DNA from: Sipunculus nudus
Lineage: Eukaryota > Annelida > Sipuncula > Golfingiida > Sipunculidae
Length of the DNA: 64,000 nt
Assembly (NCBI GenBank): GCA_026874595.1
Contig: CM049307.1
Span: 45,133,678 to 45,197,677 of the forward strand
Direction: 5' to 3'
The position numbers and the translations under genes were made by a program. The notes below the pieces were generated by a model. It did not search any database. It was not told where the DNA came from and was given only the letters and a program-made list of their open reading frames with translations. This document shows positions 10,979 through 54,991 of the stretch, in pieces (the stretch's first letter is position 1; every line of letters begins with the position of its first letter).

Positions 10979-13900
10979 TTAATCCTTAGATGCGTGCTTT
11001 GTCCTCTTCAAGCATCGTCTGATGATTGTGTTCACTCGGAACATGAAGCCGCGAATTCCTAAAAATAAATTGAACTTTATATGCTGTCACAGATGCTTAG
11101 AAGTTACACAAACACCACGAACACTAAGAGTTTATACAATGTACATAAATGGAGAGCATTAGAACTTATAGTTAGAATTAATACGTAGACCTAAAACCGA
11201 CAATATACGTGAATGTCAAATTAGGTGCTTTTTATATGTTATCTGATGGTCAAGAGCCACCGATTTATAATGTGATATATTAACATGCCGCTAAAACCAT
11301 ATACTTCCCAGGTATATTTTACATAGTATACTTAGTCATACAGGTGTATATTATTGACTACAGACTTATAATCCTGTTAGAACAGGTCACCTTAAACACG
11401 CAATTCAACACGAAGTACACACCTTTTTTCTTCGCCATTTTTTTCTGATCTGCTTTGTCACTTGGGACTGTGTGCTCTGTAGGCTCCACCTGGAGTCCAT
11501 CCGTGGCAGACACCGAGACGTTGACAAATTCTGAAACAGTCCAAGGTTCCAAATAAAGAAGACGGTAATATCCACTGGAATAACGGAGATTAGCTAAAGT
11601 AATTTACTCAGAAACATAGCCATGCACACAATGGTTGTTATTTCTAACAATTACTGGATTTGTTTGCGTGCACGAAAAATATATAATATATCAAATTTAT
11701 TCACGTAGAAAAGTATTATAATACTTGACCACTGAAATTTTCTCGATGACATAGTTGAGACTTTAAATATGGTGTTGATACTTTAAACAAGTTGATGATA
11801 CTCTAAATCAAGGCGGTGATCCACAACCACGTGGTACCTTCAAATCAGTGTTACGGTACCTTAATCACGGTGATGCATGGTACCTTATTTGTGGTAAAGG
11901 TTCATTAATCATGTTGATGACTCATTATTGGTGGTGGTGATACCATAGAATCAGGGTATTAACACCCTAACCATGATGATGTTGCCTTTTAAAATCACGG
12001 TGTTGATACCATAGAATCAGGGTGATAATACCCTAACCATGATGATGTTGCCTTTTAAAATCATGATGTTGATACCATAGAATCAGGGAGATAATACCCT
12101 AACCATGATGATGTTGCCTTTTAAAATCATGATGTTGATACCATAGAATCAGGGAGATAATACCCTAACCATGATGATGTTGCCTTTTAAAATCATGGTG
12201 TTGATACCATAGAATCAGGGTGATAACCCCCTTACCATGGTGATCTTGCCTTTTAAAATAATGGTTTTGATACCATAGAATCAGGGTGATAACACCCTAA
12301 CCATGATGATGTTGCCTTTTAAAATCACGGTGTTGATACCATAGAATCAGGGTGATAACCCCCTTACCATGGTGATCTTGCCTTTTAAAATAATGGTTTT
12401 GATACCATAGAATCAGGGTATTAACACCCTAACCATGATGATGTTGCCTTTTAAAATCATGATGTTGATACCATAGAATCAGGGTGATAACACCCTAACC
12501 ATGATGATGTTGCATTTTAAAATCACGGTGTTGATACCATAGAATCAGGGTGATTACACCCTAACCATGATGATGTTGCCTTTTAAAACCATGGTGTTGA
12601 TACCATAGAATCAGGGTGATAACACCCTAACCATGATGATCTTGCCTTTTAAAATCATGGTGTTGATACCATATAGAATCAGGGTGATAACACCCAAATC
12701 ATGATGATCTTGCCTTTTAAAATCATGGTGTTGATACCATAGAATCAGGGTGATAACACCCTAACCATGATGATGTTGCCTTTTAAAATCATGGTGTTGA
12801 TACCATAGAATCAGGGTGATAACACCCTAACCATGATGATCTTTCCTTTTAAAATCATAGTGGTGATACCATAGAATCAGGGTGATAACACCCTAACCAT
12901 GATGATCTTTCCTTTTAAAATCATGGTGTTGATACCATAGAATCAGGGTGATAACACCCAAACCATGATGATCTTGCCTTTTAAAATCATGGTGTTGATG
13001 CCATAGAATCAGGGTGATTACACTCTAACCATGATGATGTCTTTTAAAATCATGGTGTTGATACTATAGAATCAGGGTGATTACACCCTTACCATGATGA
13101 TCTTGCCTTTTAAAATCATGGTGTTGATACTATAGAATCAGGGTGATTACACCCTTACCATGATGATCTTGCCTTTTAAAATCATGGTCTTGATACCCTA
13201 GAATCAGGATGATAACACCCTGACCATGATGATGTTTCCTTTCAAATCATGATAGTGATACCTTAATTTTGGTGACGATACATTAATCATGATGATGATA
13301 CCTTTATCACCGTGGTGATACATTAATCATGATATCTAAATTATGGAGATAATACCTTAATCGTGGAGATGATACACACCTTTCTTTTTCGTTATTGTCA
13401 TCTCATCAGGGTCTCTGCAAGCAACTGTCTCAGCTGGTGGCGCCACCTGGTTCTTCTCATCACTTTGCTCGCAGATGTTAACAATTTCTGAAACAATTTA
13501 TGACTCTGATTAAACAAACGCGTTTTGATTTATTTATTTATTACCAGAAACTTAACCAAGTATGAGCACTTTTGAAATGAACAGGCCGAAAAATTATCCA
13601 GCAGTTACAGTGTAACAGATATGTCAAAATATACCTCAATGAAAAATTAATTATCACAAAACTTTCCATTTTTATATCGTTTATTACAATCAAAATGTCT
13701 TAAGAAATAAATGATTAACATAAATGTTTAAAAATATATTTTAAGTTATTATAAATATACATATTTCAAAGAAACGTATATTTTCCTAAAAGTAAAATTT
13801 GCATGATTATATTAATCAACTTCTCTAATCAATGCATCCTCTGAATTAATAAAATTGTTAATAATTAGTAATTATTATAAAGACTATATATGACCTCACA

Positions 13901-14714
13901 CAAAAACATTCAGTCAAGTATATCTGTTAATAAGAGTACCAACCTGTGACAATGGGATTTTGTAGACCAGAAAATGGCCAGTCAACCTTGTAGCTCCCGG
14001 ACTTGGAAGGGAATGACACTTTTAGAAGATCTGATTTCTCCACTGTCCCATCACGTATAACCTCCCAATGTCCACTGATTATTAGATCTGAAAAAACGAG
14101 AGTTCTTAATAGTATTATCTGAGGACAGATGAAGGATACTATTATAGAAATAACTTAAAATGAAACCATTTTGAATATTTTTTCAATTAATTACGCTTAA
14201 AACTCAATATCCTTATAATATACTACTTTATAATATACTATATGTATCATGTATGGCCTTTAAAAACACCTAAGAGCGGTCAAAACTTCCGAGACTCGTC
14301 ATTATTAATTTTGAAAGTAACTGTTTAACATTTTGTCGTGATAAAGCAATGGTATAATTCTTAATTTGCATAAGTGAATCTACCTTCCGAAATCGGTATG
14401 TTAACGACAGCAGCGCCCTCTGTTGCCAGGTAGTGTGACTTGACCCTACAGCCTGTGGTCGGCACAAATTCCATCTCATGTTTAAGTCCGTGACGCCAGT
14501 ATGGCATGGTCAATACTGCTGTCCCTGGGCATGGCGTCAGATGATTTTCGGGGTCTTCTGTGGTAAGATAAGATAAAATAGAATTAATAACTTGAGTATA
14601 AGAATACACATATACATACGTACAAACATATATATATATACGTATATACCATATATAATTATTAGTAACAGTAGTAGTAGTAGTAGTAGAAGTAGTGGTA
14701 ATAGAAGTAGTGGC

Positions 14715-14754
<40 letters not shown>

Positions 14755-15701
14755 TTTATACATTTAATTAATTTTTTTAAGAATAATCGAATTTAAAGTT
14801 TAAACGCTGAGCAAGCTACGAAAATTGGAATTTTGAAGTAGAATTTTAATTTTCATATTGCGGAAATTTTATGTGCGGACACTGTATTGCTCTACTATTA
14901 TTGGTAACTAATAAAATGGTCATGCCTGTTTTAGACGGTGAAATGAAAATACCTTGTGACATTTCTTGCGATTCTCCTGCACAGTTGAAACGGAACTTGA
15001 CTAGTGCCTGGGCGGTCCCTGCTGGGAGACAGAGCTGTCTGTTGACCACTTTGTCTTCCCAACAGAGAGCGCCACATTTTGACCGTACTACGGCCTTGTA
15101 GTGGGTAGACCCATGGGGCACGTGGGCAACACCCACCCACTGAGGGGAACCCTTGGGGGCGTTCACTAACTGTACGCCCTCGCCCACCTCCCACTGGCCA
15201 AGTGAAGGGTGCTCGCCCACAATATAGACTTCTTCGTCTTCCTCCTTGGCCAGGTAATTGATCATAAAACACAGGATCACTGAAACAAAGCAGAAATAAA
15301 AAAATAGTGATTTTGACCGAGTATTACGTTTCACAGTGGATGTATCTTATTTCTTCTGTCTCTAAAAGTTAGCTCAGAATAATTAATAAACTGTACGTTA
15401 ACTCAGAATGAACCGTTAACTGTGAATTAGTTATGGCGTGATTTGAAGATAAACATCATGTTATTAGTCCTGTTATTTACTATAGCTGCTATCGCATTAA
15501 AGTCAGACCGCCCATTAACATATAACACGAATATAAATTAAAACATTTGGAGTATTACTAAATATAAGTCTATCTAAGGAAGCAGAACATCTGATCGAAC
15601 AATGTACTTACAATATCATTCATATCTACTGTTTTACATTAATCTTTCATTTACAATCTGTTTCATTAAATAATTAATTAAGTCAGCTTACCGTAATCCA
15701 T
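10979..15701 (-). CDS. CBM20-domain protein, copy C1 (7 exons, intact)
   Basis: Predicted 316-residue protein, likely cytosolic because it has no signal peptide. Coding exons on the - strand are 15701-15692, 15279-14953, 14557-14384, 14087-13944, 13487-13380, 11530-11423 and 11058-10979, all with AG/GT borders and all introns phase 1. Residues 3-102 form a CBM20 starch/glycogen-binding domain: VYIVGEHPSLGQW (21-33), W51, YKAVV (64-68), WED (77-79) and NR (83-84) are family positions. Exons 3-4 (about 113-218) hold SGHWEVIRDG and KSGSYKVDWPF and match nothing I recognise. Exons 5 and 6 are duplicates of one 36-residue segment ending KKK. The tail GFMFRVNTIIRRCLKRTKHA is strongly basic. The start was chosen for its strong context (GCTGCCATGG) and its conservation in all five copies. 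An in-frame ATG 18 bases upstream has poorer context. AATAAA is at 10892-10887. Expected role: glycogen binding or targeting, inferred from CBM20 alone. Confidence 0.82.
11943..13260. repeat. 66-bp intronic minisatellite, 20 copies (C1)
   Basis: Tandem array with period exactly 66, lying wholly in the intron between exons 5 and 6 of C1. The typical unit contains CCATAGAATCAGGGTGATAA, CACCCTAACCATGATGATG and CCTTTTAAAATCATGG in that order. Each unit can form a small hairpin (AGGGTG..CACCCT) and a second one (CCATGAT..ATCATGG). Degenerate monomers of about 20 bp (GATACCTTAATCATGGTGAT type) flank both sides. Confidence 0.95.
14669..14752. repeat. Trinucleotide repeat (AGT)n in C1 intron 2
   Basis: Interrupted run of GTA/AGT units between exons 3 and 2, next to a TATA-rich run at 14628-14655. 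It is present in all five gene C copies with different lengths. Confidence 0.9.
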
Positions 15702-15864
15702 GGCAGCGTAATGGATCATCTGATGCGGAATAATCCGGATAAATTGATATTATTATATTCTAAATCTAAAATGACGATGACAGATAAGTTGATGCTGAAA
15801 GTTGTTGTCGACACGGCCGTCTGATGACAGAGAGTGAACCTAATGATCTGGTTACCATGCAACG

Positions 15865-15939
15865 TGACGTGAACAATAGCGTACGAACGTCACGACTAGA
15901 CGGCACGTAAAGACGTCACCAAGGTGATGCTCTGACGTC
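15865..15939. promoter_or_regulatory. Cluster of four CRE/ATF-like sites upstream of C1
   Basis: TGACGT at 15865, ACGTCA at 15887, ACGTCA at 15913 and TGACGTC at 15933 lie within 75 bases, 164-238 bases upstream of the C1 start codon. Such ACGTCA-type sites bind CREB/ATF-type bZIP factors in animals, so cAMP- or stress-responsive control is plausible. That is inference; only the motif cluster is seen. It is kept in all five copies. Confidence 0.55.
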
Positions 15940-16842
15940 GTTTTTCGCATTCACAAACTTTCGGTTGTTTAAGAATAAAATTAAGCTTTGTAAACGTTGT
16001 CCCTATGACCATGGACTAAGTATATGTCAGTGACAGAGTTAATCGTCCTGTTATGTTTTTCCCTGTTCAGGTAATATTAAAAAAAAACGAGTCCAATTAA
16101 TTAGGGGAGTATGACCCATCATGAATTCAGGGAATGTTTTACTATTTATAGGTCCTAATTAACATCCCATGAATGAATGCTATCAGGAAACCGGTAATTA
16201 TGTTCATGTAAATTTATCGGCATAACATCACCCTCCCGCCAGAGGTCGTCTCTACTCAAAACGAAGCTCTTGTGGACAGTTAGGCACTGTGGCACGGCCG
16301 AGACTACTTGTCTGAACTGTCAAAGTTTAACATCGAAATTTGTTAGATTTTGAGGAAACACATTTTATTTACATTCACATGCGCATGCTTACAAAATATT
16401 ACTTATTTCATGAAGTCCTAACCACGGAGACGCCCATGATTATGTAATTGGCCTTGAAACGATTCCTTTTGAACGTATTTAAACAGACTACATGTATTTA
16501 TCCTCCCCCCCCCCTTTTTTTATATATATATACGCCATCTGTATATGTTGAAGCCCCGGTGCATTGTGGGCCGTAGATTCCAAAGCCCACAAACCCTAAA
16601 CATCAGAGTCGTACTCTTGTGAATTCCATTCTGCGCAGTCTTGCGTAACATGTGAATGAACTGGTGATATCACAGCTCTGGAGAAAGCGTCCTTGTATTG
16701 TACGGTAAGTTAACGAGGTTGCTTACTGTATACACGGACACGCTCAGATCATGAAATGATCATGTTTTCTACACTCATAATGAATCACTTGATTTGCAAT
16801 ACTCTCATTGGCTTGTATATAGATTTTTTTTTTCTTGGTCAG

Positions 16843-17038
16843 CAGAATGATGTTTCCATTTATAAATTTGATTGGTCCTGGTAAAACTGAACAGAGGCGC
16901 CATCTGTTACCAGAAAAATGCAGCCTGGAGCCTTCCATTCTTCCTCAGACACCAATGATTGGATGTTGTTTTTCACTCATGTCGATCTTTTTTTTTCTGG
17001 AGTTGTTTTTCATGATGACTGTTAAGATAGGAAAGTAA
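16843..17038 (+). other. Possible divergent spliced transcript, exon 2 (C1 flank)
   Basis: A possible 5' exon ends at 16704 (TACG|GTAAGT). A 138-base gap leads to a strong acceptor (T-rich run, then TTGGTCAG) at 16842, followed by ATG at 16847. The frame reads MMFPFINLIGPGKTEQRRHL and continues for about 60 residues, ending in a low-complexity F-rich stretch. The PGKTEQRRHLLPEKCSLEPS part is unchanged in the C2, C3 and C5 flanks. C4 has lost the segment. It could be a small peptide, a noncoding RNA or only duplicated DNA. I favour the last two. Confidence 0.2.
16894..16908 (-). promoter_or_regulatory. CTCF-like core (AACAGATGGCGCCTC), C1 flank
   Basis: On the - strand the string is AACAGATGGCGCCTC, close to the AG(A/G)(T/G)GGCGC core bound by CTCF in bilaterians. 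It is conserved at 24735, 40282 and 56012 and deleted in the C4 flank. Binding is inference. Confidence 0.3.
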
Positions 17039-18318
17039 TTCTTTAATACTTCTTTAATGCCATCAAAAACTGACATTATGTGGATATGCACAAGACCTGT
17101 TTTCGTAAAATACTGACATTATAATGGTCTGCCAAGTGTGTTCCTAGAGTTACAAAGTCTTTGTCCACTCGTAATCAGCCATTCTCTGTGAATGACACAC
17201 ATGACACATATGTTCATTATCTCCCTCAATTATTGCTATCACATATATAAAATACTCTTTTATTCCTCCCTGAATATCAAACTGACCGTTGGTACGACTG
17301 TCTATATAGGTGATTAGGTGATTCCATTAAATTATCATATAGTATAAATGCTTTATTCATTATTCCGACTGGATATGACCCTCAAAGTAGTAAACATTGC
17401 TGAAAGGAAATAAATATACAGACATTGTTACACAATCAAAGATATTTCTTGTTGTAAAAGGACACAATACATACCGATAATTTTTTTTCCAAATATTCTG
17501 TGAGGTTATTTCAACTTAGGTGAGTTTTAAACAAGGAGTAATCAATCAATGTCGTTGTATGGCGAAGGAATCGTCTTTATAACGGTGTTGAAAAATAATC
17601 TGCGGACATATTTTAATCGCAATAAAAAAAACCAGTAAAATGCACGATAAAAAGAAGCTTGTGAATTGTGAAAAAAAAATCACAGGAATATTTCATTTTT
17701 GATAACAGTAAAAGGATAATTAGTCATTGATTATGCCCTGGGGACAGGTACCTTTCAATGATTTATGAAACGGTAGGGATGTACTTGAAGCGTTTTTAGT
17801 ATTTCTTCGCTAAACAAATAAGTTTAAATTAAGCAAAAAATTGTTAGGTGCAAACTTTTCACAGCGAAAGCTCTACGGTAGATGAAATTTATGTATCCGG
17901 ATTTAATGAATCCTATGGACATGAATCTCCATAAACTGGATTGTTTTCTGTGTAATGATCAATCTATGAATACAATCTTTGTAATTTCGGGAGATACATA
18001 TGCGTACTTGACATTAATCCATTTTTTTATTTAAAAATATTACTTCGGGGCGCTGCAGCAATTCGGAAAACATGATGCTCTGTTGAAAGGTTTGAAAATT
18101 TATCGTTCCACTGCTCACGAATGCATGTTCACCGTATCTTAAAATAATAGGATTATCCATGAAATTTAAATATTACAAGTAAGTTTAATCATAAATGGTG
18201 CAATGCAAACAGAAAGAAACTGTTGCAATTCAGAACACGTGTTAGAAAATATATCGCTCCAGTGCTCATGAATGTTCACGGTCTCTTAGAAATATCACAC
18301 GGTGACAAACTGACGTGC

Positions 18319-18392
18319 GCCTCCGTGGCCTTATATGGATAAGGCACCGGCCTCTGAAGCCGGGGATTGCGGGTTCGAGTCCTGTCGGAGTT
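18319..18392 (+). tRNA. tRNA-like locus, anticodon CTG on an arginine-type body (likely pseudogene)
   Basis: Cloverleaf in order: acceptor GCCTCCG, D arm GCCT/AGGC with a 10-base loop, anticodon stem CCGGC/GCCGG with loop CTCTGAA (anticodon CTG, 18354-18356), variable GGATT, T arm GCGGG-TTCGAGT-CCTGT, acceptor CGGAGTT. The body is closest to animal tRNA-Arg(CCT), but the anticodon reads the glutamine codon CAG. The acceptor has a C:T mismatch at pair 2 and a weak first pair, and the D loop is two bases long. It lies in the C1-C2 spacer and recurs at 41702 and 49437. Confidence 0.6.
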
Positions 18393-19167
18393 AAGTGCCG
18401 TTCGTTTACTAAGGCCTACTGAATGATTCAGTTCAAAGAAGTTTCATGAACGTATTCATCTGTGAATTCAATGAATTTTAATTAAATGTGATAAATAGGT
18501 CTATTTAACATTCGTTTGCTATATAACAAAAGCATGGAGGAGAAATAAAATTTGTCAGACCAATTTTTAGTTTTTCTTGTTTGTCCAGTTTTGTTCAATG
18601 TTGCTTCGATTAATTGAATAAAGATCTTATTCTAAATGTTAAATTAGTTGTAATTTTGTACCCTAATGAATTATCTTTTTAATCAGGGTGATATTTTTCC
18701 CAGGTTTTTTTTGTTTATGTTTGATGTCTCTTTGAATATTATCAGTGCATGCTTTTCAACATAAGACGTGAAAATGTTTATAATTTTAGTTTAACCACTT
18801 GGGTTGGAGGAATCCGACCAGTGAGAGGGTAAAATGAGACCATGCCTAGGCTGATTTCAGATTACCAGTTAGCAACCTTGATTGTTTGTGTCTGTATGTG
18901 TGTGTGGGAGGGAGTCATAAATATGGTCCCACCATCCATTGGTTGTGCAATTTAAGAACAACAACAATTATTAAATAAAGTCCCCTCCCACGCACAAAAT
19001 AAAACTCTAACGCATTCACATCGTCAAGTAATAAAGCTAATATTCAACAAATACACTAAAAGAGGTTTCCGAAATTTATTATATAAATCTAAACATTTGA
19101 TATAATATGAATGAGAGAGCAGTTCATATATTTTCCTGTCCATTCTTGTCCACGGCAGTGGTACGTC
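18393..19167. other. C1-C2 spacer, C2 3' flank
   Basis: No gene seen. It is homologous to 41776-42568 and 49511-50302. The C2 poly(A) signal (AATAAA on the - strand) is at 19080-19075. Confidence 0.5.
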
Positions 19168-20130
19168 TTAATCCTTAGATGCGTGCTTTGTCCTCTTCAA
19201 GCATCGTCGTAAGATTGTGTTCACTCGGAACATGAAGCCGTGAATACCTAAAAAAAAATAAAATTGAACTTTATACTGTAACTGAAGATTAAAAGTGACA
19301 CAAACACCACGAACACTAAGAGTTTATACAATGTACATAAATGGAGAGCATTAGAACTTGTAGTTAGACTTAATACGTAGACCTAAAACCGACAATATAC
19401 GTGAATGTCAAAATAGGTGATTTTAAAATGTTATCTGATGGTCAAGAGCCACCGATTTATAATGTGATATATAAACATGCCGCTAAAACCATATACTTCC
19501 CAGACACATTTTACATAGCATACTCAGTCATACAGGTGTATATTATTGACTACAGACTTATAATCCTGTTAGAACAGGTCACCTTAAACACGCAATTCAA
19601 CACGAAGTACACACCTTTTTTCTTCGCCATTTTTTTCTGATCTGCTTTGTCACTTGGGACTGTGTGCTCTGTTGGCTCCACCTGGAGTCCATTCGTGGCA
19701 GACACCGAGACGTTGACAAATTCTGAAACAGTCCAAGGTTCCAAATAAAGAAGACGGTAATATCCACTGGAATAACGGAGATTAGCTAAAGTAATTTACT
19801 CAGAAACATGGACATGCACACAATGGTTGTTATTTCTAACAATTATTGCATTTGTTTGCGTGCACGAAAAACATATTATATATTAAATAAACACGTAGAA
19901 AAGTATTATAATACTTGACCACTATAATTTTCTCGATGACATAGTTGAGACCAATATTAGGGTGGTGATACTTAAAACAGGCTGATGATACCCTAAATCA
20001 GAGTTGATCCCCAACCACGTGGTACCTTCAAATCAGTGTTACGGTACCTTAATCACGGTGGTGCATGGTACCTTATTCGTGGTAAAGGTTCATTAATCAT
20101 GTTGATGACTCATTATTGGTGGTGGTGATA

Positions 20131-21119
20131 CCATAGAATCAGGGTATTAACACCCTAACCATGATGATGTTGCCTTTTAAAATCATGGTGTTGATACCAT
20201 AGAATCAGGGTATTAACACCCTAACCATGATGATGTTGCCTTTTAAAATCATGGTGTTGATACCATAGAATCAGGGTGATTACACCCTAACCATGATGAT
20301 GTTGCCTTTTAAAACCATGGTGTTGATACCATAGAATCAGGGTGATAACACCCTAACCATGATGATGTTGCCTTTTAAAATCTCGGTGTTGATACCATAG
20401 AATCAGGGTGATTACACCCTAACCATGATGATGTTGCCTTTTAAAACCATGGTGTTGATACCATAGAATCAGGGTGATAACACCCTAACCATGATGATGT
20501 TGCCTTTTAAAATCATGGTGTTGATACCATAGAATCAGGGTGATAACACCCTAACCATGATGATGTTGCCTTTTAAAATCACGGTGTTGATACCATAGAA
20601 TCAGGGTGATTACACCCTAACCATGATGATGTTGCCTTTTAAAACCATGGTGTTGATACCATAGAATCAGGGTGATAACACCCTAACCATGATGATCTTG
20701 CCTTTTAAAATTATGGTTGTGATACCATAGAATCAGGGTGATAATACCCAGACCATGATGATCTTGCCTTTTAAAATCATGGTGTTGATACCATAGAATC
20801 AGGGTGATAACACCTAAACCATGATGATCTTGCCTTTTAAAATCATGGTGTTGATACCATAGAATCAGGGTGATAACACCCAAACCATGATGATCTTGCC
20901 TTTTAAAATCATGGTGTTGATGCCATAGAATCAGGGTGATTACACTCTAACAATGATGATGTTGTCTTTTAAAATCATGGTGTTGATACTATAGAATCAG
21001 GGTGATTACACCCTTACCATGATGATCTTGCCTTTTAAAATCATGGTCTTGATACCATAGAATCAGGATGATAACACCCTGACCATGATGATGTTTCCTT
21101 TCAAATCATGATAGTGATA
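20131..21119. repeat. 66-bp intronic minisatellite, 15 copies (C2)
   Basis: Same 66-bp unit and same intron (between exons 5 and 6) as in C1, shortest of the five arrays. Because 66 is divisible by three, a repeated 22-residue frame (GVITLILWYQHHDFKRQDHH type) stays open on the - strand by chance. Confidence 0.95.
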
Positions 21120-22519
21120 CCTTAATTTTGGTGACGATACATTAATCATGATGATGATACCTTTATCACCATGGTGATACATTAATCATGATATCTAAAT
21201 TATGGAGATAATACCTTAATCATGGAGATGATACACACCTTTCTTTTTCGTTATTGTCATCTCATCAGGGTCTCTGCAAGTAACTGTCTCAGCTGGTGGC
21301 GCCACCTGGTTCTTCTCATCACTTTGCTCGCAGATGTTAACAATTTCTGAAACAATTTATGACTCTGATTAAACAAACGCGTTTTGATTTATTTATTACC
21401 AGAAACTTAACCAAGTATGAGCACTTTTGAAATGAACAAGCCGAAAAATTATCCAGCAGTTACAGTGTAACAGATATGTCAAAATATACCTCAATGAAAA
21501 ATTAATTATCACAAAACTTTCCATTTTTATATCGTTTATTACAATCAAAATGTCTTAAGAAATAAATGATTAACATAAATGTTTAAAAATATAATTATAA
21601 GTTATTATAAATATACATATTTCAAAGAAACGTATATTTTCCTGAAAGTAAAATTTGCATGATTATATTAATCAACTTCTCTAATCAATGCATCCTCTGA
21701 ATTAATAAAATTGTAAATAATTAGTAATTATTATAAAGACTATATATGACCTCACACAAAAACATTCAGTCAAGTATATCTGTTAATAAAAGTACAAACC
21801 TGTGACAATGGGATTTTGTAGACCAGAAAATGGCCAGTCAACCTTGTAGCTCCCGGACTTGGAAGGGAATGACACTTTTAGAAGATCTGATTTCTCCACT
21901 GTCCCATCACGTATAACCTCCCAATGTCCACTGATTATTAGATCTGAATAAACGAGAGTTCTTAATAGTATTACCTGAGGACAGATGAAGGATACTATTA
22001 TAGAAATAACTTAAAATGAAACCATTTTGAATATTTTTTTAATTAATTACGCTTAAAACTCAATATCCTTATAATATTCTACTTTATAATATACTATATG
22101 TATCATGTATGGCCTTTAAAAACACCTAAGAGCGGTCAAAACTTCCGAGACTTGTCAATATTAATTTTGAAAGTAACTGTTTAACATTTTGTCGTGATAA
22201 AGCTATGGTATAATTCTTAATTTGCATAAGTGAATCTACCTTCCGAAATCGGTATGTTAACGACAGCAGCGCCCTCTGTTGCAAGGTAGTGTGACTTGAC
22301 CCTACCGCCTGTGGTCGGCACAAATTCCATCTCTGGTTTAAGTCCGTGACGCCAGTATGGCATGGTCAATACTGCTGTCCCTGGGCATGGCGTCAGATGA
22401 TTTTCGGGGTCTTCTGTGGTAAGATAAGATAAAATAGAATTAATTACTTGAGTATAAGAATACACATATACATACGTACAAACATATATATACGTATATA
22501 CCATATATAATTATTAGTA

Positions 22520-22572
22520 ACAGTAGTAGTAGTAGTAGTAGTAGTAGAAGTAGTGGTAATAGAAGTAGTGGC

Positions 22573-22602
<30 letters not shown>
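22520..22602. repeat. Trinucleotide repeat (AGT)n in C2 intron 2
   Basis: Homologous to the run in C1, with a different number of AGT units. Confidence 0.85.
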
Positions 22603-22603
<1 letters not shown>

Positions 22604-23714
22604 TTTATACATTTAATTAATTTTTTTTAAGAATAATCGAATTTAAAGTTTAAACGCTGAGCAAGCTACGAAAATTGGAATTTTGAAGTAGAATTTTAAT
22701 TTTAATATTGCGGAAATTTTATGTGCGGACACTGTATTGCTCTACTATTATTGGTAACTAATAAAATGGTCATGCCTGTTTTAGACGGTGAAATGAAAAT
22801 ACCTTGTGACATTTCCTGCGATTCTCCTGCACAGTTGAAACGGAACTTGACCAGTGCCTGGGCGGTCCCTGCTGGGAGACAGAGCTGTCTGTTGACCACT
22901 TTGTCTTCCCAACAGAGAGCGCCACATTTTGACCGTACTACGGCCTTGTAGTGGGTAGACCCATGGGGCACGTGGGCAACACCCACCCACTGAGGGGAAC
23001 CCTTGGGGGCGTTCACTAACTGTACGCCCTCGCCCACCTCCCACTGGCCAAGTGAAGGGTGCTCGCCCACAATATAGACTTCTTCGTCTTTTCCTTTGCC
23101 AGGTAATTGATCATAAAACACAGGATCACTGAAACAAAGCAGAAATAAAAAAAATAGTGATTTTGACCGAGTATTACGTTTCACAGTGGATGTATCTTAT
23201 TTCTTCTGTCTCTAAAAGTTAGCTCAGAATAATTAATAAACTGTACGTTAACTCAGAATAAACCGTTAACTGTGAATTAGTTATGGCGTGATTTGAAGAT
23301 AAACATCATGTTATTAGTCCTGTTATTTACTATAGCTGCTATCGAATTAAAGTCAGACCGCCCATTAACATAAAACACGAATATAAATTAAAACGTTTGG
23401 AGTATTACTAAATATTAGTCTATCTAAGGAAGCAGAACATCTGATCGAACAATGTACTTTCAATATCATTCATATCTACTGTTTGACATTAATCTTTCAT
23501 TTACAATCTGTTTCATTAAATAATTAATTAAGTCAGCTTACCGTAATCCATGGCAGCGTAATGGATCATCTGATGCGGAATAATCCTGATAAATTGATAT
23601 TATTATATTCTAAATCTAAAATGACGATGACAGATAAGTTGATGCTGAAAGTTGTTGTCGACACGGCCGTCTGATGACAGAGAGTGAACCTATTGATCTG
23701 GTTACCATGCAACG

Positions 23715-26355: not shown

Positions 26356-26647
26356 ATGAACAAAACAAATGTTAAAGAATGAATCATTTTTTTCTATATC
26401 AATATGTATACCATCTCCACAAGCACTGTAATTAATTATATATAATGTTTGGTTCTAATATTAATTTTGAATGAAATTTAAGTTGATTATGAATTAGGGT
26501 GTTTTTTCCATTGATTCTACCTCAAAAGACTCCATATCCAAGCCTTATGATGGGGTGAAATTAGTTAAGTCGTGTGGTACAGAATAACAGAACAGTTTAA
26601 ACTATTAGTATTTCCAGTTGAAGCAATATGTTATGTTTTTGTTACAG

Positions 26648-28250
26648 GGTCAAATACTTTGGCTATAACGCTTGCTTTAGTCGGAAAGCTGTCCATATCA
26701 GCATCTTTCTCTTTGGCCTATATCTTTAATGCTCCACAATTATCAGGTAATATACATTTGCCATTTGTTTAAATCACAAGTAACAGGTTAACCATGCATG
26801 TGTGGGCAACATTTTCTGACATGTATAAAGATATATAATCACATGTATGTAATTTTATATACAGTTAGTATAGGCTCCCTTTGTTGAGACTGGAGAAATG
26901 TTTGGTGAGTAAGATGTAAGATGTTCATTTTGTTGACCTAAAAGTAAAACATTATTGAATAGACTAGCATATTATCTGGACCTGCTTGGGCACAGGCACC
27001 CAATATGAAACCTATTGTGGTTATTTAAATATGTACTGCATTACATCCTTTAACCTTATCTCAGCTTTTGATAACCAGTAATAGTTGATATTTATTAAAC
27101 ATAAATATACTATATATATCATATAACACGAGTGGATATCTTAACATTTATATATCTTTAACATTGAGGGTGTATACGGTATCATGATTCAAATGTCTGT
27201 GCCTCAGGATTGTTCAATCTAACCTGGGCCAGGTTTGTCCAAGACAGGTTTTCCATGGGACGAGTACCACTGGTTACACTGGTATATAATAGATGCCACT
27301 GTATAGGCTTTTTGTAAAATTTCCCAAATAAAGTCAGATTCCTCAGAATTTGCCATAATATATAGAAAATGAGGCCCATTAGGACACACTATCATTCTGA
27401 ACAAAAATGGGCATATCTGAGGTGAGGTCATAGAATTGTTGCATGACTACAATTTAGTGCAACCATCAGTTATAATATAGGTTAGGAGCAATGTTACAGA
27501 GGGATTTCAGATGACAGTCTGTGTGGCCAATGTGACAAGGTAAAACAAGATGGCATTTCAGTGTAATTGACAGCTTGGCTAAGTAGCCAGTTTAACTTTT
27601 GGACAGATTTGGTCCATTTAAATAGATCATATAGGCAATCAGTTCATTTTTATACACACCTGAAAATTTGAGCCCATAAAAAACAATAAAAATAAGAAAG
27701 ATGGTTCAGAAATGAATACTTAAAAAAGGAAACAAGTGTGAAATCTCTGTTTGTACTCAGTAATACAGCTCGAATAAAACAGAAAAGCACATGATCATCA
27801 ACATGACATTACCTTTGCCTGTGGTATTTTCATTTGCTTTAGGATTTTATGTTTACTGTTGATATTAATATTTATTGTGTGTATTGCAGTAATAATGCCC
27901 TTGGCATTTGTGTGACTGCGGCCAGGTTTGGCGGAGTTCTGGCACCTCTTGAGATACAACAGGTATGTGTAATAACTGACGTCTTCCTTACTTCTAGATA
28001 GATCTGTTTTTTTAATGTTAATTTTAATGGAAATATTCAGTGTCCTGTTAACATCCTTATTTATGGTTAAAACTGCTGCAATTTATTAACTGTGGTTTCC
28101 AGAATAAGATTTGTTAATATCCCGTATTTCAAAGTTTCCTGTGTTTTCTTCACATTTTCTTCTCTTGTAACTATGTCCTTTGAAGTGAGATGTTCTCTTT
28201 GCAACATAGCAGTCTCTGTGTATGTGTGTGTATGTATTTGCATATATATA

Positions 28251-39249: not shown

Positions 39250-39324
39250 TGACGTGAACAATAGCGTACGAACGTCACGACTAGACGGCACGTAAAGACG
39301 TCACCAAGGTGATGCTCTGACGTC
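39250..39324. promoter_or_regulatory. CRE/ATF-like cluster upstream of C3
   Basis: Four ACGTCA/TGACGT sites identical in order and spacing to C1. Confidence 0.5.
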
Positions 39325-41701: not shown

Positions 41702-41775
41702 GCCTCCGTGGCCTTATATGGATAAGGCACCGGCCTCTGAAGCCGGGGATTGCGGGTTCGAGTCCTGTCGGAGTT
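41702..41775 (+). tRNA. tRNA-like locus, anticodon CTG, copy 2
   Basis: Same 74 bases as 18319-18392 with the same CTG anticodon (41737-41739) and the same acceptor mismatch. It sits in the C3-C4 spacer. Confidence 0.6.
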
Positions 41776-42568
41776 AAGAGCCGTTCGTTTACTAAGGCCT
41801 ACTGAATGATTCAGTTCAAAGAAGTTTCTTTAACGTATTCATCTGTGAATTCAATGAATTTTAATTAAATGTGATAAATAGGTCAATTTAACATTCATTT
41901 GCGATAAAAAAAGCATGAAGGCGAAGTAAAATTTGTCAGACCAATTTTTAGTTTTTCTTGTTTGTCCAGTTTTGTTCAATGTTGCTTTGATTAATTGAAT
42001 AAAGATCTTATTTTAAATGTTAATTTAGTTGTAATTTTGTACCCTAATGAATTATCCTTTAAATCAGGGTGATATTTTCCCAGGTTTGAAAGACTTTGTG
42101 GATATTTTTTTTGTTTATGTTTCATGTCTCTTTGAATACTATCAGTGCATGCTTTTCAACGTAAGACGTGAAAATGTTTATAATTTTAGTTTAACCACTT
42201 GGGTTGGAGGAATCCGAACAGTGAGAGGGTAAAATGAGACCATGCCTAGGCTGATTTCAGATTACCAGTTAGTAACTTTGATTGTTTGTGTCTGTATGTG
42301 TGTGTGGGAGGGAGTCATAAATATGGTCCCGCCATCCATTGGTTGGGCAATTTAAGAACAACAACAATTATTAAAATAAAGTCCCCTGTCACGCACAAAA
42401 TAAAACTCTAATGCATTCACATCGTCAAGTAATAAAGCTAATATTCAACAAATACACTAAAAGAGGTTTCCGAAATTTATTATATAAATCTAAACATTTG
42501 ATATAATAGTAATGAGAGAGCAGTTCATATATTTTCCTGTCCATTTTTGTCCACGGCAGTGGTACGTC
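41776..42568. other. C3-C4 spacer, C4 3' flank
   Basis: No gene seen. It is almost identical to 49511-50302. The C4 poly(A) signal is at 42481-42476 on the - strand. Confidence 0.5.
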
Positions 42569-45500
42569 TTAATCCTTAGATGCGTGCTTTGTCCTCTTCA
42601 AGCATCGTCTGAAGATTCTGTTCACTCGGAATATGAAGCCGCGAATTCCTAAAAAAATAAAATTGAAATTTATACTGTCACAGAAGATTAGAAGTGACAC
42701 AAACACCACGAACACTAAGAGTTTATACAATGTAAATAAATGGAGAGCATTAGAACTTATAGTTAGACTTAATACGTAGGCCTAAAACCGACAGTATACG
42801 TGAATGTCAAAATAGGTGCTTTTTATAAGTTATCTGAAGGTCAAGAGCCACCGATTTATAATGTGATATATAAACATGCCGCTAAAACCATATACTTCCC
42901 AGACACATTTTACATAGTATACTCAGTCATACAGGAGTATATTATTGACTACAGACTTATAATCCTAATAGAACAGGTCACCTTAAACACGCAATTCAAC
43001 ACGAAGTACACACCTTTTTTCTTCGCCATTTTTTTCTGATCTGCTTTGTCACTTGGGACTGTGTGCTCTGTTGGCTCCACCTGGAGTCCATTCGTGGCAG
43101 ACACCGAGACGTTGACAAATTCTGAAACAGTGCAAGGTTCCAAATAAAGAAGACGGTAATATCCACTGGAATAACGGAGATAAGCTAAAGTAATTTACTC
43201 AGAAACATAGCAATGCACACAATGGTTGTTATTTCTAACAATTACTGGATTTGTTTGCGTGCACGAAAAATATATAATATATCAAATTTATTCACGTAGA
43301 AAAGTATTATAATACTTGACCACTGAAATTTTCTCGATGACATAGTTGAGACTTTAAATATGGTGCTGATACTTAAAACAGGCTGATGATACTCTAAATC
43401 AAGGCGGTGATCCCCAACCACGTGGTACCTTCAAATCAGTGTTACGGTACCTTAATCACGGTGGTGCATGGTACCTTATTCGTGGTAAAGGTTCATTAAT
43501 CATGTTGATGACTCATTATTGGTGGTGGTGATACCATAGAATCAGGGTTATAACACCCTAACCATGATGATGTTGCCTTTTAAAATCACGGTGTTGATAC
43601 CATAGAATCAGGGTGATAACACCCAAACCATGATGATCTTGCCTTTTAAAATTATGGTGGTGATACCATAGAATCAGGGTGATAACACCCTAACCATGAT
43701 CATCTTGCCTTTTAAAATCATGGTGGTGATACCATAGAATTAGAGTGATAACACCTTAACCATGATGATGTTGCCTTTTAAAATCATGTTGGTGATACCA
43801 TAGAATCAGGGTATTAACACCCTAACCATGATGATGTTGCCTTTTAAAATCATGGTGTTGATACCATAGAATCAGGGTGATAACACCCTAACCATGATGA
43901 TGTTGCCTTTTAAAATCACGGTGTTGATACAATAGAATCAGGGTGATTACACCCTAACCATGATGATGTTGCCTTTTAAAATCACGGTGTTGATACCATA
44001 GAATCAGGGTGATTACACCCTAACCATGATGATGTTGCCTTTTAAAACCATGGTGTTGATACCATAGAATCAGGGTGATAACACCCTAACCATGATGATC
44101 TTGCCTTTTAAAATTATTTTGGTGATACCATAGAATCAGGGTGATAATACCCAAACCATGATGATGTTGTCTTTTAAAATCATGGTGTTGATACCATAGA
44201 ATCAGGGTGATAACACCCAAACCATGATGATCTTGCATTTTAAAATCATGATGTTGATACCATAGAATCAGGGTGATAACACCCTAACCATGATGATCTT
44301 GCCTTTTAAAATCATGGTGTTGATACCATAGAATCAGGGTGATAACACCCTAACCATGATCATCTTGCCTTTTAAAATCATGGTGGTGATACCATAGAAT
44401 CAAGGTGAAAACACCCAAACCATGATGATCTTGCCTTTTAAAATCATGGTGTTGATACCATAGAATCAGGGTGATAACACCCTAACCATGATGATCTTGC
44501 CTTTCAAAATCATGGTGTTGATGCCATAGAATCAGGGTGATTACACCCTTACCATGATGATCTTGCCTTTTAAAATCATGGTCTTGATACCATATAATCA
44601 GGATGATAATACCCTGACCATGATGATGTTTCCTTTCAAATCATGATAGTGATACCTTAATTTTGGTGACGATACATTAATCATGATGATGATACCTTTA
44701 TCACCGTGGTGAATAATCATGATATCTAAATTATGGAGATATATCTTAATCGTGGAGATGATACACACCTTTCTTTTTCGTTATTGTCATCTCATCAGGG
44801 TCTCTGCAAGCAACTGTCTCAGCTGGTGGCGCCACCTGGTTCTTCTCATCACTTTGCTCGCAGATGTTAACAATTTCTGAAACAATTTATAAATCTGATT
44901 AAACAAACGCGTTTTGATTTATTTATTATAAGAAACTTAACCAAGTATGAGCACTTTTGAAATGAACAGGCCGAAAAATTATCCAGCAGTTACAGTGTAA
45001 TAGATATGTCAAAATATACCTCAATGAAAAATTAATTATCACAAAACTTTCCATTTTTATATCGTTTATTACAATCAAAATGTCTTAAGAAATAAATGAT
45101 TAACATAAATGTTTAAAAATATAATTATAAGTTATTATTAATATACATATTTCAAAGAAACGTATATTTTCCTAAAAGTAAAATTTGCATTATTATATTA
45201 ATCAACTTCTCTAATCAATGCATCCTCTGAATTAATAAAATTGTTAATAATTAGTAATTATTATAAAGACTATATATGACCTCACACAAAAACATTCAGT
45301 CAAGTATATCTGTTAATAAGAGTACCAACCTGTGACAATTGGATTTTGTAGACCAGAAAATGGCCAGTCAACCTTGTAGCTCCCGGACTTGGAAGGGAAT
45401 GACACTTTTAGAAGATCTGATTTCTCCACTGTCTCATCACGTATAACCTCCCAATGTCCACTGATTATTAGATCTGAATAAACGAGAGTTCTTAATAGTA

Positions 45501-47056
45501 TTACCTGAGGACAGATGAAGGATAATATTATATAAATAACTTAAAATGAAACAATTTTGAATATTTTTTTAATTAATTACGCTTAAAACTCAATATCCTT
45601 ATAATATACTACTTTATAATATACTATATGTATCATGTATGGCCTTTAAACACTTAAGAGCGGTCAAAACTTCCGAGACTCGTCATTATTAATTTTGAAA
45701 GTAACTGTTTAACATTTTGTCGTGATGAAGCAATGGTATAATTCTTAATTTGCATAAGTGAATCTACCTTCCGAAATCGGTATGTTAACGACAGCAGCGC
45801 CCTCTTTTGCAAGGTAGTGTGACTTGACCCTACCGCCTGTGGTCGGCACAAATTCCATCTCATGTTTAAGTCCGTGACGCCAGTATGGCATGGTCAATAC
45901 TGCTGTCCCTGGGCATGGCGTCAGATGATTTTCGGGGTCTTCTGTGGTAAGATAAGATAAAATAGAATTAATAACTTGAGTATAAGAATACACATATACA
46001 TACGTACAAACATATATATATATACGTATATACCATATATAATTATTAGTAGCAGTAACAGTAGTAGTAGTAGTAGAAGAAGTACTAGTTTTAGTAGTAG
46101 TGGCAGTTGTAGTAGTAGTAATAGTATTTATTAATTCAATTAAATTTTAAGAATAATCGAATTTAATGTTTAAACTTTAAAGTAGAATTTTAATTTTCAT
46201 ATTAAAGGAATATTTTGCGCGGGCACAGTATTGCTCTAGCTTTATTGGTAACTATGAAAATTATCATGCCTGTTTTAGACGGTGAAATGAAAATACCTTG
46301 TGACATTTCCTGCGATTCTCCTTCACAGTTGAAACGGAACTTGACCAGTCCGTGGGCGGTCCCTGTTGGGAGACAGAGCTGTCTGTTGACCACTTTGTCT
46401 TCCCAACAGAGAGCGCCACATTTCGACCGTACTACTGCCTTATAGTGGGTAGATCCACGGGGCACGTGGGCAACACCCACCCACTGAGGGGAACCCTTGG
46501 GGGCGTTCACTAACTGGACGCCCTCGCCCACGTCCCACTGGCCAAGTGAAGGGTGCTCTCCCACAATATAGACTTCTTCGTCTTCCTCCTTGGCCAGGTA
46601 ATTGACCATAAAACACAGGATCACTGAAACAAAGCAGAAATAAAAAAAAATTAGTAATTTTGACCGAGTATTACGTTTCACAGTTAATGTATCTTATTTC
46701 TTCTGTCTCTAATTCTAAAAGTTAGCTCAAAATAAGTAGTAAACTGTACATTGACTCAGAATAAATCGTTAACCGTGAATTAGTTATGGCGTGATTTGAA
46801 GATTAACATTGTGTTATTAGGCCTGCATGTTATATACTATATCTGCGGCTGAAATAAAGTCAGACAGCCCATTAACATATAACACTAATAAAAATTAAAA
46901 CTTTTTGAGTATTACTAAATATTAGTCTATCTGAGGAAGCAGAACATCTGATCGAACATTGTTTACAATTATTGATATCCACTGTTTCAGATTAATCATT
47001 CATTTCCAGTCTGTTTTTTTTTAATTAAGTAAATAGGTCAGCTTACCGTAATCCAT
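42569..47056 (-). CDS. CBM20-domain protein, copy C4 (7 exons, intact, most diverged)
   Basis: Exons are 47056-47047, 46623-46297, 45941-45768, 45473-45330, 44876-44769, 43121-43014 and 42648-42569, giving 316 residues in frame. The CBM20 signature residues (VYIVGEHPSLGQW, YKAVV, WED, NR) are all kept. Differences include WDVGEG, VPRGST, PTGTAHGLVK and NCEGES in exon 2, RDETV in exon 4 and FIFRVNRIFRR in exon 7. The upstream in-frame ATG of the other copies is lost here by an eight-base deletion, which supports the downstream start. Its upstream flank lacks a 270-base segment. C4 has no counterpart in the C1-C2-S2 block, so it was either lost there or added here. Confidence 0.8.
43534..44654. 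repeat. 66-bp intronic minisatellite, 17 copies (C4)
   Basis: Same unit and location as the other arrays, with more private substitutions (for example GATCATCTTGCC and AATTAGAGTGATAAC variants). Confidence 0.95.
46048..46128. repeat. Degenerate (AGT)n in C4 intron 2
   Basis: Interrupted and shorter than in the other copies, in line with the greater age of C4. Confidence 0.75.
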
Positions 47057-50302: not shown

Positions 50303-51270
50303 TTAATCCTTAGATGCGTGCTTTGTCCTCTTCAAGCATCGTCGTAAGATTGTGTTCACTCGGAACATGAAGCCGTGAATTCCTAAAAAAAATAAAAATT
50401 GAACTTTATACTGTAACTGAAGATTAAAAGTGACACAAACATCACGAACACTGAGAGTTTATACAATGTACATAAATGGAGAGCATTAGAACTTGTAGTT
50501 AGACTTAATACGTAGACCTAAAACCGACAATATACGTGAATGTCAAAATAGGTGCTTTTTATATGTTATCTGATGGTCAAGAGCCACCGATTTATAATGT
50601 GATATATGAACATGCCGCTAAAACCATATACTTCCCAGACACATTTTACACAGTATACTCAGTCATACAGGAGTATATTATTGACTACACACTTATAATC
50701 CTGTTAGAACAGGTCACCTTAAACACGCAATTCAACACGAAGTACACACCTTTTTTCTTCGAAATTTTTTTCTGATCTGCTTTGTCACTTGGGACTGTGT
50801 GCTCTGTTGGCTCAACCTGGAGTCCATTCGTGGCAGACACCGAGACGTTGACAAATTCTGAAACAGTCCAAGGTTCCAAATAAAGAAGACGGTAATATCC
50901 ACTGGAATAACGGAGATTAGCTAAAGTAATTTACTCAGAAACATAGCCATGCACACAATGGTTGTTATTTCTAACAATTACTGGATTTGTTTGCGTGCAC
51001 GAAAAAATATATAATATATTAAATATATTCACGTAGAAAAGTGTTATAATAACTGACCACTGAATTTTTCTCGATGACATAGTTGAGACTTTAAATATGG
51101 TGCTGATACTTAAAACAGACTGATGATACCCTAAATCAAGGCGGTGATCCCCAACCACGTGGTACCTTCAAATCAGTGTTACGGTACCTTAATCAAGGTG
51201 GGGCATGGTACCTTATTCGTGGTAAAGGTTCATTAATCATGTTGATGACTCATTATTGGTGGTGGTGATA

Positions 51271-52391
51271 CCATAGAATCAGGGTATTAACACCCTAACC
51301 ATGATGATGTTGCCTTTTAAAATCATGGTGTTGATACCATAGAATCAGGGTGATAACACCCTAACCATGATGATTTTGTCTTTTAAAATCACGGTGTTGA
51401 TACCAGAGAATCAGGGTAATAACACCCTAACCATGATGATGTTGCCTTTTAAAATCATGGTGTTGATACCATAGAATCAGGGTGATAACACCCTAACCAT
51501 GATGATGTTGCCTTTTAAAATCACGGTGTTGATACCATAGAATCAGGGTAATAACACCCTAACCATGATGATGTTGCCTTTTAAAATCATGGTTTTGATA
51601 CCATAGAATCAGGGTGATAACACCCTAACCATGATGATGTTGCCTTTTAAAATCACGGTGTTGATACCATAGAATCAGGGTGATTACACCCTAACCATGA
51701 TGATGTTGCCTTTTAAAACCATGGTGTTGATACCATAGAATCAGGGTGATAACACCCTAACCATGATGATCTTGCCTTTTAAAATTATGGTGTTGATACC
51801 ATAGAATCAGGGTGATAATACCCAAACCATGATGATCTTGCCTTTTAAAATCATGGTGTTGATACCATAGAATCAGGGTGATAACACCCAAACAATGATG
51901 ATCTTGCCTTTTGAAATCATGGTGTTGATACCATAGAATCAGGGTGATAACACCCAAACCATGATGATCTTGCCTTTTAAAATCATGGTGTTGATACCAT
52001 AAAATCAGGGTGATAACACCCTAACCATGATGATCTTGCCTTTTAAAATCATGGTGGTGATACCATAGAATCAGGATGATAACACCCTAACCATGATTAT
52101 CTTGCCTTTTAAAATCATGGTGTAGATACCATAGAATCAGGGTGATAACACCCAAACCATGATGATCTTGCCTTTCAAAATCATGGTGTTGATGCCATAG
52201 AATCAGGGTGATTACACTCTAACCATGATGATGTTGTCTTTTAAAATCATGGTGTTGATACTATAGAATCAGGGTGATTACACCCTTACCATGATGATCT
52301 TGCCTTTTAAAATCATGGTCTTGATACCATAGAATCAGGATGATAACACCCTGACCATGATGATGTTTCCTTTCAAATCATGATAGTGATA
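51271..52391. repeat. 66-bp intronic minisatellite, 17 copies (C5)
   Basis: Same unit and location as the other arrays, two units longer than in C2, its closest relative. Confidence 0.95.
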
Positions 52392-53789
52392 CCTTAATTT
52401 TGGTGACGATACATTAATCATGATGATGATACCTTTATCACCGTGGTGATACATTAATCATGATATCTAAATTATGGAGATAATACCTTAATCGTGGAGA
52501 TGATACACACCTTTCTTTTTCGTTATTGTCATCTCATCAGGGTCTCTGCAAGCAACTGTCTCAGCTGGTGGCGCCACCTGGTTCTTCTCATCACTTTGCT
52601 CGCAGATGTTAACAATTTCTGAAACAATTTATGACTTTGATTAAACAAACGCGTTTTGATTTATTTATTACCAGAAACTTAACCAAGTATGAGCACTTTT
52701 GAAATGAACAGGCCGAAAAATTATCCAGCAGTTACAGTGTAACAGATATGTCAAAATATACCTCAATGAAAAATTAATTATCACAAAACTTTCCATTTTT
52801 ATATCGTTTATTACAATCAAAATGTCTTAAGAAATAAATGATTAACATAAATGTTTAAAAATATAATTATAAGTTATTATAAATATACATATTTCAAAGA
52901 AACGTATATTTTCCTAAAAGTAAAATTTGCATGATTATATTAATCAACTTCTCTAATCAATGCATCCTCTGAATTAATAAAATTGTTAATAATTAGTAAT
53001 TATTATAAAGACTATATATGACCTCACACAAAAACATTCAGTCAAGTATATCTGTTAATAAGAGTACCAACCTGTGACAATGGGATTTTGTAGACCAGAA
53101 AATGGCCAGTCAACCTTGTAGCTCCCGGACTTGGAAGGGCATGACACTTTTAGAAGATCTGATTTCTCCACTGTCCCATCACGTATAACCTCCCAATGTC
53201 CACTGATTATTAGATCTGAATAAACGAGAGTTCTTAATAGTATTACCTGAGGACAGATGAAGGATACTATTATAGAAATAACTTAAAATGAAACCATTTT
53301 GAATATTTTTTTAATTAATTACGCTTAAAACTCAATATCCTTATAATATACTACTTTATAATATACTATATGTATCATGTATGGCCTTTAAAAACACCTA
53401 AGAGCGGTCAAAACTTCCGAGACTCGTCATTATTAATTTTGAAAGTAACTGTTAAACATTTTGTCATGATAAAGCAATGGTATAATTCTAAATTTGCATA
53501 AGTGAATCTACCTTCCGAAATCGGTATGTTAACGACAGCAGCGCCCTCTGTTGCCAGGTAGTGTGACTTGACCCTACCGCCTGTGGTCGGCACAAATTCC
53601 ATCTCATGTTTAAGTCCGTGACGCCAGTATGGCATGGTCAATACTGCTGTCCCTGGGCATGGCGTCAGATGATTTTCGGGGTCTTCTGTGGTAAGATAAG
53701 ATAAAATAGAATTAATAACTTGAGTATAAGAATACACATATACATACGTACAAACATATATATACGTATATACCATATATAATTATTAG

Positions 53790-53876
53790 TAACAGTAGTA
53801 GTAGTAGTAGTAGTAGAAGTAGTGGTAATAGAAGTAGTGGCAGTAGTTGTAGTAGTAGTAGTAGTAGTAGCAGTGG
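53790..53876. repeat. Trinucleotide repeat (AGT)n in C5 intron 2
   Basis: As in C2, with a GTTGTAG interruption. Confidence 0.85.
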
Positions 53877-54991
53877 TATTTATACATTTAATTAATTTTT
53901 TTTAAGAATAATCGAATTTAAAGTTTAAACGCTGAGCAAGCTACGAAAATTGGAATTTTTAAGTAGAATTTTAATTTTCATATTGCGGAAATTTTATGTG
54001 CGGACACTGTATTGCTCTACTATTATTGGTAACTAATAAAATGGTCATGCCTGTTTTAGACGGTGAAATGAAAATACCTTGTGACATTTCCTAGCGATTC
54101 TCCTGCACAGTTGAAAAGGAACTTGACCAGTGCCTGGGCGGTCCCTGTTGGGAGACAGAGCTGTCTGTTGACCACTTTGTCTTCCCAACAGAGAGCGCCA
54201 CATTTTGACCGTACTACTGCCTTGTAGTGGGTAGACCCATGGGGCACGTGGGCAACACCTACCCACTGAGGGGAACCCTTGGGGGCGTTCACTAACTGGA
54301 CGCCCTCGCCCACCTCCCACTGGCCAAGTGAAGGGTGCTCGCCCACAATATAGACTTCTTCGTCTTCCTCCTTGGCCAGGTAATTGACCATAAAACACAG
54401 GATCACTGAAACAAAGCAGAAATAAAAAAAATAGTGATTTTGACCGAGTATTACGTTTCACAGTGGATGTATCTTATTTCTTCTGTCTCTAAAAGTTAGC
54501 TCAGAATAATTAATAAACTGTACGTTAACTCAGAATAAACCGTTAACTGTGAATTAGTTATGGCGTGATTTGAAGATAAACATCATGTTATTAGTCCTGT
54601 TATTTACTATAGCTGCTATCGAATTAAAGTCAGACCGCCTATTAACATATAACACGAATATAAATTAAAACGTTTGGAGTATTACTAAATATTAGTCTAT
54701 CTAAGGAAGCAGAACATCTGATCGAACAATGTACTTACAATATCATTCATATCTACTGTTTTACATTAATCTTTCATTTACAATCTGTTTCATTAAATAA
54801 TTAATTAAGTCAGGTTACCGTAATCCATGGCAGCGTAATGGATCATCTGATGCGGAATAATCCTGATAAATTGATATTATTATGTTCTAAATCTAAAATG
54901 ACGATGACAGATAAGTTGATGCTGAAAGTTGTTGTCGACACGGCCGTCTGATGACAGAGAGTGAACCTAATGATCTGGTTACCATGCAACG

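Follow-up and report, generated by a model that had tools for sequence, protein, structure and literature searches.

The window, that is, the whole stretch of 64,000 nucleotides (nt) analysed here, corresponds to positions 45133678-45197677 of contig CM049307.1 (C2) of Sipunculus nudus and carries five copies (A-E) of one seven-exon gene whose product begins with a CBM20 domain. All five copies are located in tandem on the minus strand. An earlier interpretation of the window from its letters alone (hereafter, the sequence-only reading) had placed the same five copies of seven exons each and had given a product of 316 residues, which is the exact length for copies A, C, and D. In window numbering, the copies are as follows:

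10979-15701, minus strand: copy A, open, 316 amino acids (aa); exons 15701-15692, 15279-14953 (CBM20), 14557-14384, 14087-13944, 13487-13380, 11530-11423, 11058-10979.
19168-23551, minus strand: copy B, frameshifted; exons 23551-23542, 23128-22803 (CBM20, 1-base deletion), 22413-22240, 21943-21800, 21346-21239, 19722-19615, 19247-19168.
34306-39086, minus strand: copy C, open, 316 aa; exons 39086-39077, 38664-38338, 37942-37769, 37472-37329, 36871-36764, 34858-34751, 34385-34306.
42569-47056, minus strand: copy D, open, 316 aa; exons 47056-47047, 46623-46297, 45941-45768, 45473-45330, 44876-44769, 43121-43014, 42648-42569.
50303-54828, minus strand: copy E, frameshifted; exons 54828-54819, 54405-54078 (CBM20, 1-base insertion), 53685-53512, 53215-53072, 52618-52511, 50857-50750, 50382-50303.

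The exon joints used are predicted from the sequence; all of them have AG/GT borders and are in phase 1. The spliced products predicted for copies A, C, and D start with MDYV, the ATG of which lies within a GCCATGG context, and a further in-frame ATG is present six codons upstream in copies A, B, C, and E. The deletion in copy B falls within the CBM20 exon and the insertion in copy E near the end of that exon, and no homopolymer longer than four bases was found at either frameshift. Two further copies were located beyond the window, at C2:45202201 (L001, open, 316 aa) and C2:45211438 (L002). The latter has 280 aa as modelled, the script having put an exon-6 copy at the place of exon 5, whose reading frame is present there. 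In total, the array comprises seven copies: four with full 316-aa products (A, C, D, and L001), one with an ambiguous joint (L002), and two with frameshifts (B and E). Full gene models were built for the copies of this array. An alternative exon 6 that begins after CTTTAG and leads to a 337-aa product was considered and dropped: with the acceptor that matches the one of exon 5, exon 6 has 36 residues and the product 316 aa. The parts of copy A are listed below:

14953-15279, minus strand: CBM20 exon, identified by the Pfam profile, the predicted fold, and the alignment of 17 members.
13944-14557, minus strand: second domain (“PYWR” domain), exons 3 and 4 (14557-14384 and 14087-13944, with an intron between them), probable CBM20-like beta-sandwich.
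13380-13487, minus strand: linker exon 5, lysine-ended, with the motif VAPPAE.
11423-11530, minus strand: linker exon 6, derived from exon 5 by duplication and divergence (108 nt in both, same phase, 33% identical).
10979-11058, minus strand: last exon, basic C-terminal tail beginning with GIRG, followed by the stop.
15863-15938, minus strand: cluster of four TGACGT sites upstream of the gene, with three or four in each of the seven array copies.
11932-13262, no strand assigned: minisatellite with a 66-bp unit, located in the intron that separates the linker exons, with counterparts in the other copies at 20120-21121, 35252-36646, 43523-44656, and 51260-52393.

The first domain is a genuine CBM20 with its ligand-site residues kept. 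The profile PF00686 (CBM_20) matched product residues 14-94 with 47.9 bits against a cut-off of 23.3 (E 1.2e-12), which agrees with the position at the very N-terminus proposed by the sequence-only reading; this and the PDB search of the product were run with the 337-aa version containing the longer exon 6. The CBM20 exon begins at product residue 4, and its hydrophobic start forms the first strand of the predicted model; no signal peptide was recognised in the product by eye, no predictor having been used. The AlphaFold model of the exon, built from 17 family sequences, had a mean predicted local distance difference test score (pLDDT) of 94.4 and a CBM20 beta-sandwich fold. The top 50 structural matches listed were all CBM20 domains, with Z-scores of 11.3-15.8. 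Among them were glucoamylase (Z 15.8), the CBM20 of STBD1 with maltotetraose (8x8k; Z 14.6, root-mean-square deviation (rmsd) 1.7 over 94 residues), GPCPD1 (2z0b; Z 13.6), and laforin (4rkk; Z 13.3). Residues W30, K62, W74, E75, and R81 were unchanged in all 17 aligned members, which were chosen loci with broken copies mostly left out. Both tryptophans and the lysine line up with the glucoamylase domain, and we take the conserved Trp, Lys, and Trp to be the ligand-site residues. For STBD1, passages of PMC4076837 describe W293 (equivalent to laforin W32) as needed for the binding of amylose and of glycogen-associated proteins, the mutant being also unstable; in our reading, this residue corresponds to W30. 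By sequence and predicted fold, the domain is a putative binder of starch or glycogen.

The region following the CBM20, which the sequence-only reading had left unassigned, is a conserved domain encoded by exons 3 and 4, and its predicted structure indicates that it probably has a CBM20-like fold. Both exons are conserved among the members aligned, and P19, W21, and R22 of the domain were unchanged in 12 of 12. Pfam gave no match in the second domain of copy A, and four further members had none to CBM_20 and none over any cut-off; sequence profiles from the PDB gave nothing usable either (one search without a match, another with a best E of 0.18). Given these results and that of the hhalign comparison reported below, the case for a CBM20-like fold comes entirely from structure prediction. 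The model represents a read-through of locus L013, including its 84-codon intron, together with 29 other rows. For nearly all of the exon parts, pLDDT was 76-92 per ten residues. When the structural matches were re-aligned with VIA-align, exons 3 and 4 superposed together on CBM20-bearing chains at ranks 1-36 (Z 8.4-9.8, 88-97 residues, rmsd 2.6-3.1); this ranking is that of the re-alignment and not of Foldseek's own E-values. In 10 of these 36 rows, the aligned range was wholly inside the CBM20, for example, residues 419-516 of beta-amylase and 263-358 of STBD1.

Several results weigh against this fold assignment. The mean pLDDT of the whole model was 66.8 and the predicted template modelling score 0.57, the intron part being mostly at 37-61. 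The alignments of the other 26 rows began upstream of the CBM20 in the chain, with some residues aligning elsewhere. Directly below rank 36, the interleukin-6 receptor (fibronectin-type domain) and CBM41 reached Z 8.2 and 8.1 vs. 9.8 for the best CBM20, which is a modest margin. Foldseek itself gave no match at E <= 0.001. Homology of the two domains has no support from sequence: a comparison of the second domain with the first CBM20 by hhalign had a probability of 6.6% with small alignments, and pairwise scores between the two domains were scarcely above those of shuffled sequences (mean 26.5 vs. 24.4). The tryptophans and the lysine of the CBM20 site were seen by eye to have no counterpart in the second domain. 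The likeness of the two domains is one of predicted fold.

The C-terminal part of the product consists of the linker and the tail. Exons 5 and 6 are each 108 nt long, in phase 1, and lysine-ended; thus, the duplicated lysine-ended segment of the sequence-only reading is, as far as the gene models indicate, a duplicated 108-nt exon. The number of linker exons varies: a single one was found at three of the four loci of the cluster at C2:53.3 Mb and none at the fourth (L005), and L012 has two. Of 18 loci examined, 8 have the motif V-(A/T/P)-PP-(A/V/I)-(E/D) in surroundings that resemble a linker, as counted without a shuffle control. The last exon encodes the basic tail that had been described; among 15 loci, a pattern search located its GIRG start at three, namely copy A, L003, and L017, and L018 has a variant of it.

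A Pfam scan of the product found CBM_20 alone and no phosphatase, phosphodiesterase, other enzyme, or signalling domain. Three animal CBM20 proteins are usually recognised, namely laforin (EPM2A), STBD1, and GPCPD1 (KIAA1434), and the architecture found here differs from all of them, as had been proposed. The CBM20 of laforin is N-terminal, as is that of GPCPD1; however, neither the dual-specificity phosphatase domain of the former nor the glycerophosphodiester phosphodiesterase domain of the latter was found in the product by Pfam. STBD1 is, like the present protein, a non-catalytic animal CBM20 protein, and its domain gave the highest Z-score among the animal CBM20 structures. Passages of PMC4076837 describe a hydrophobic stretch at its N-terminus and a CBM20 at its C-terminus, whereas here the CBM20 is N-terminal and is followed by the second domain, the linker exons, and the basic tail. 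The 316-aa product thus lacks the STBD1-type combination of an N-terminal membrane anchor and a C-terminal CBM20, and we did not assign the family to STBD1 because the order of parts differs. Among plant proteins, DPE2 is a tandem CBM20 protein and an enzyme. As in DPE2, two modules of starch-binding type stand in series at the N-terminus here; unlike in DPE2, the second module seems to be without ligand residues, and the product has no recognised enzyme domain. The abstract of PMC9920598 names tandem starch-binding domains of potato. In the literature on CBM20 or starch-binding domains in molluscs, lophotrochozoans, and metazoans, no such family was mentioned among the titles and abstract openings listed, which cover only part of the papers and do not show that the family is undescribed.

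The family extends far beyond the window. The five copies of the sequence-only reading hold for the window itself and undercount the family, which comprises the seven genes of the array and, by one query, 70 CBM20-exon places in the genome. The genome searched amounted to 1.43 Gb in 153 contigs, and its intron-rich genes and gene families mark it as animal. As to a lophotrochozoan origin, a search for molluscan haemocyanin gave no match, nor did any of its controls, and the C1q-domain exons of the genome (at least 70) are only suggestive. A genome-wide search with PF00686 gave 28 exons, all above the cut-off. A single member (L016) as a query gave 137 matches, of which 74 rows in the CBM20 region represented the 70 places, on seven contigs. 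At 24 of them, the exon was unbroken over at least 75 residues; this count includes copies B and E, whose frameshifts are outside the matched part, and omits L002 because of a stop past the exon. All family counts are lower bounds, with at least one more place at C2:88.07 Mb. At 17 of the 18 loci L003-L020, the CBM20 exon was followed by exons 3 and 4, which were weak in L010 and missing in L020. In a tree of 20 members, tandem neighbours clustered together; the fork of the window cluster (94/99) is not among the strong ones, 3 inner branches out of 14 are shown open, and a warning about long branches was issued by the program. The family was built by tandem duplication with frequent decay and occupies dozens of places in the genome. 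An origin from prokaryotes or viruses found no support: a search of the genome_contigs set with the family pattern gave no match, and its eight matches in viral contigs encode no relative; such patterns reach close relatives only.

Two further observations concern incomplete members. The family also includes arrays of partial CBM20 exons at C2:61.42-61.55 Mb and C10:68.6-70.0 Mb, and those read were broken or incomplete. At L025 (C1:86.48 Mb), exons 3 and 4 were present at 2308-3975 with no recognised CBM20 exon in the stretch examined; this locus is possibly a member whose first domain was lost or has diverged.

The ratio of nonsynonymous to synonymous substitutions (dN/dS) was calculated by the Nei-Gojobori method for the three domain exons of 19 chosen pairs, with L019 used despite a stop in its CBM20 exon. 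The ratio was 0.22-0.52 in 14 pairs, zero in two, and undefined in three, two of the latter being saturated. Between the window cluster and the cluster at C2:53.3 Mb, dN/dS was 0.23 at a dS of approximately 1.05. The substitution pattern shows purifying selection on the proteins of the family. Upstream of the start, at a distance of 147-235 bases, each of the seven array copies has three or four TGACGT sites; in a crude shuffle of two-base blocks, p was at most 0.007 for every copy. The C2:53.3 Mb cluster has four such sites ahead of the gene at each of its four loci, as counted without a shuffle. We take TGACGT to be the half-site of the cAMP response element (CRE), a motif of the CREB/ATF type. 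Its recurrence hints at control of this type, which would fit metabolic or stress regulation.

Taken together, this is a real, selectively maintained, and strongly amplified family with a domain arrangement unlike that of the three known animal CBM20 proteins. As to its function, we propose a small, putatively cytosolic, non-catalytic adaptor of alpha-glucan (glycogen), which would work like STBD1 without belonging to the STBD1 family, and we give this proposal an even chance of being correct. The N-terminal CBM20 would dock on glycogen or another alpha-glucan, and the second domain may serve as a protein-binding or structural partner domain. The linker, with one or two lysine-ended exon copies and the V-x-PP-x-(E/D) motif at many loci, would together with the short basic tail recruit a partner or touch a membrane. 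The protein would thereby act as a tether to glycogen in the manner of STBD1, its parts being in reverse order; in passages of PMC4076837, overexpressed STBD1 is described as relocating glycogen proteins to its membrane site. Certain findings speak against the adaptor role. The linker motif was not found at 10 of the 18 loci examined, the tail exon was not found by the GIRG pattern at 12 of 15, and the hydrophobic moment of the tail was clearly above that of shuffles in just one of five sequences, so that the tail as a membrane helix is a guess. An ATG8-binding motif of the STBD1 type was not recognised in an inspection by eye only.

More tentatively, and with somewhat less than even expectation, the family may represent a fourth class of animal CBM20 proteins. 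It would consist of non-catalytic CBM20 plus CBM20-like adaptors with twenty or more candidate genes, the second module having turned from glucan to protein binding, and the members would be diversified glycogen receptors or cytosolic alpha-glucan sensors. If so, a large CBM20 family free of enzyme domains in an invertebrate-like genome would mean that adaptors binding glycogen are able to diversify in the way receptor families do. The family also provides a testable set, in which it may be asked whether the copies bind different alpha-glucans and what the partner of the second module is.

The large clustered family with many broken copies, the grouping of tandem neighbours in the tree, and the CRE/ATF-type sites would also fit a family of intracellular innate-immune or stress receptors. 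Their CBM20 would sense foreign or damaged alpha-glucan (algal starch, or glycogen of bacteria or parasites), the second domain, linker, and tail would signal, and the birth and death of copies would reflect an arms race. The presence of at least 70 C1q-domain exons (E <= 1e-8) in this genome also speaks for this reading. However, the 14 defined non-zero dN/dS values, a crude measure over whole exons, contain no hint of positive selection, and a nonsynonymous excess was seen only in the close pair L003-L004, the third undefined pair, with four nonsynonymous and no synonymous changes. The glucan-site residues are unchanged among the 17 aligned members, and Pfam found no signalling domain in the product. 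We consider an immune or stress receptor unlikely.

Amplification for dosage only, in which all copies of a housekeeping scaffold of glycogen metabolism would do the same job in glycogen-storing cells, appears improbable as well. In its favour, the domain exons (645 nt) of copy A are separated from those of copy C by a single silent change and those of L004 from those of L006 by two, and CRE half-sites recur in two clusters. However, the CBM20 exon of the other clusters is 39-53% identical to that of copy A (65% for the cluster at C2:53.3 Mb), which argues for divergence, and the reading frames of copies B and E are disrupted. The sequence-only reading had taken the amplification to suggest selection for dosage or a lineage-specific role in glycogen handling; these are conjectures. 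It is very unlikely that the copies are mostly dead or drifting repeats of a decaying tandem duplication with little function: one query finds 46 of the 70 places with a CBM20 exon to be broken or partial (L002 among them solely for the stop past its exon), two of the five window copies are frameshifted, and L019 has a stop in its CBM20 exon, but the low dN/dS between old clusters, the four full 316-aa products, and the invariant ligand-site residues speak against this.

Repeats were also noted in the window. The 66-bp minisatellite is present with 15-21 units between the two linker exons of each of the five window copies, and when the whole genome was searched for its DNA, all 108 matches fell inside the seven-gene array. 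Window positions 11932-21110 and 35318-44514 are 97.8% identical across 9.2 kb; judging by this identity, most of the A-B pair was duplicated recently as C-D. A second, interspersed repeat of approximately 4.5-5.4 kb is located at 4891-10291, 26431-30894, and 57620-62025. A long reading frame was not obvious in its middle copy. Its pieces are 81-88% identical and adjoin the gene groups, and the repeat may be a marker of the duplication unit.

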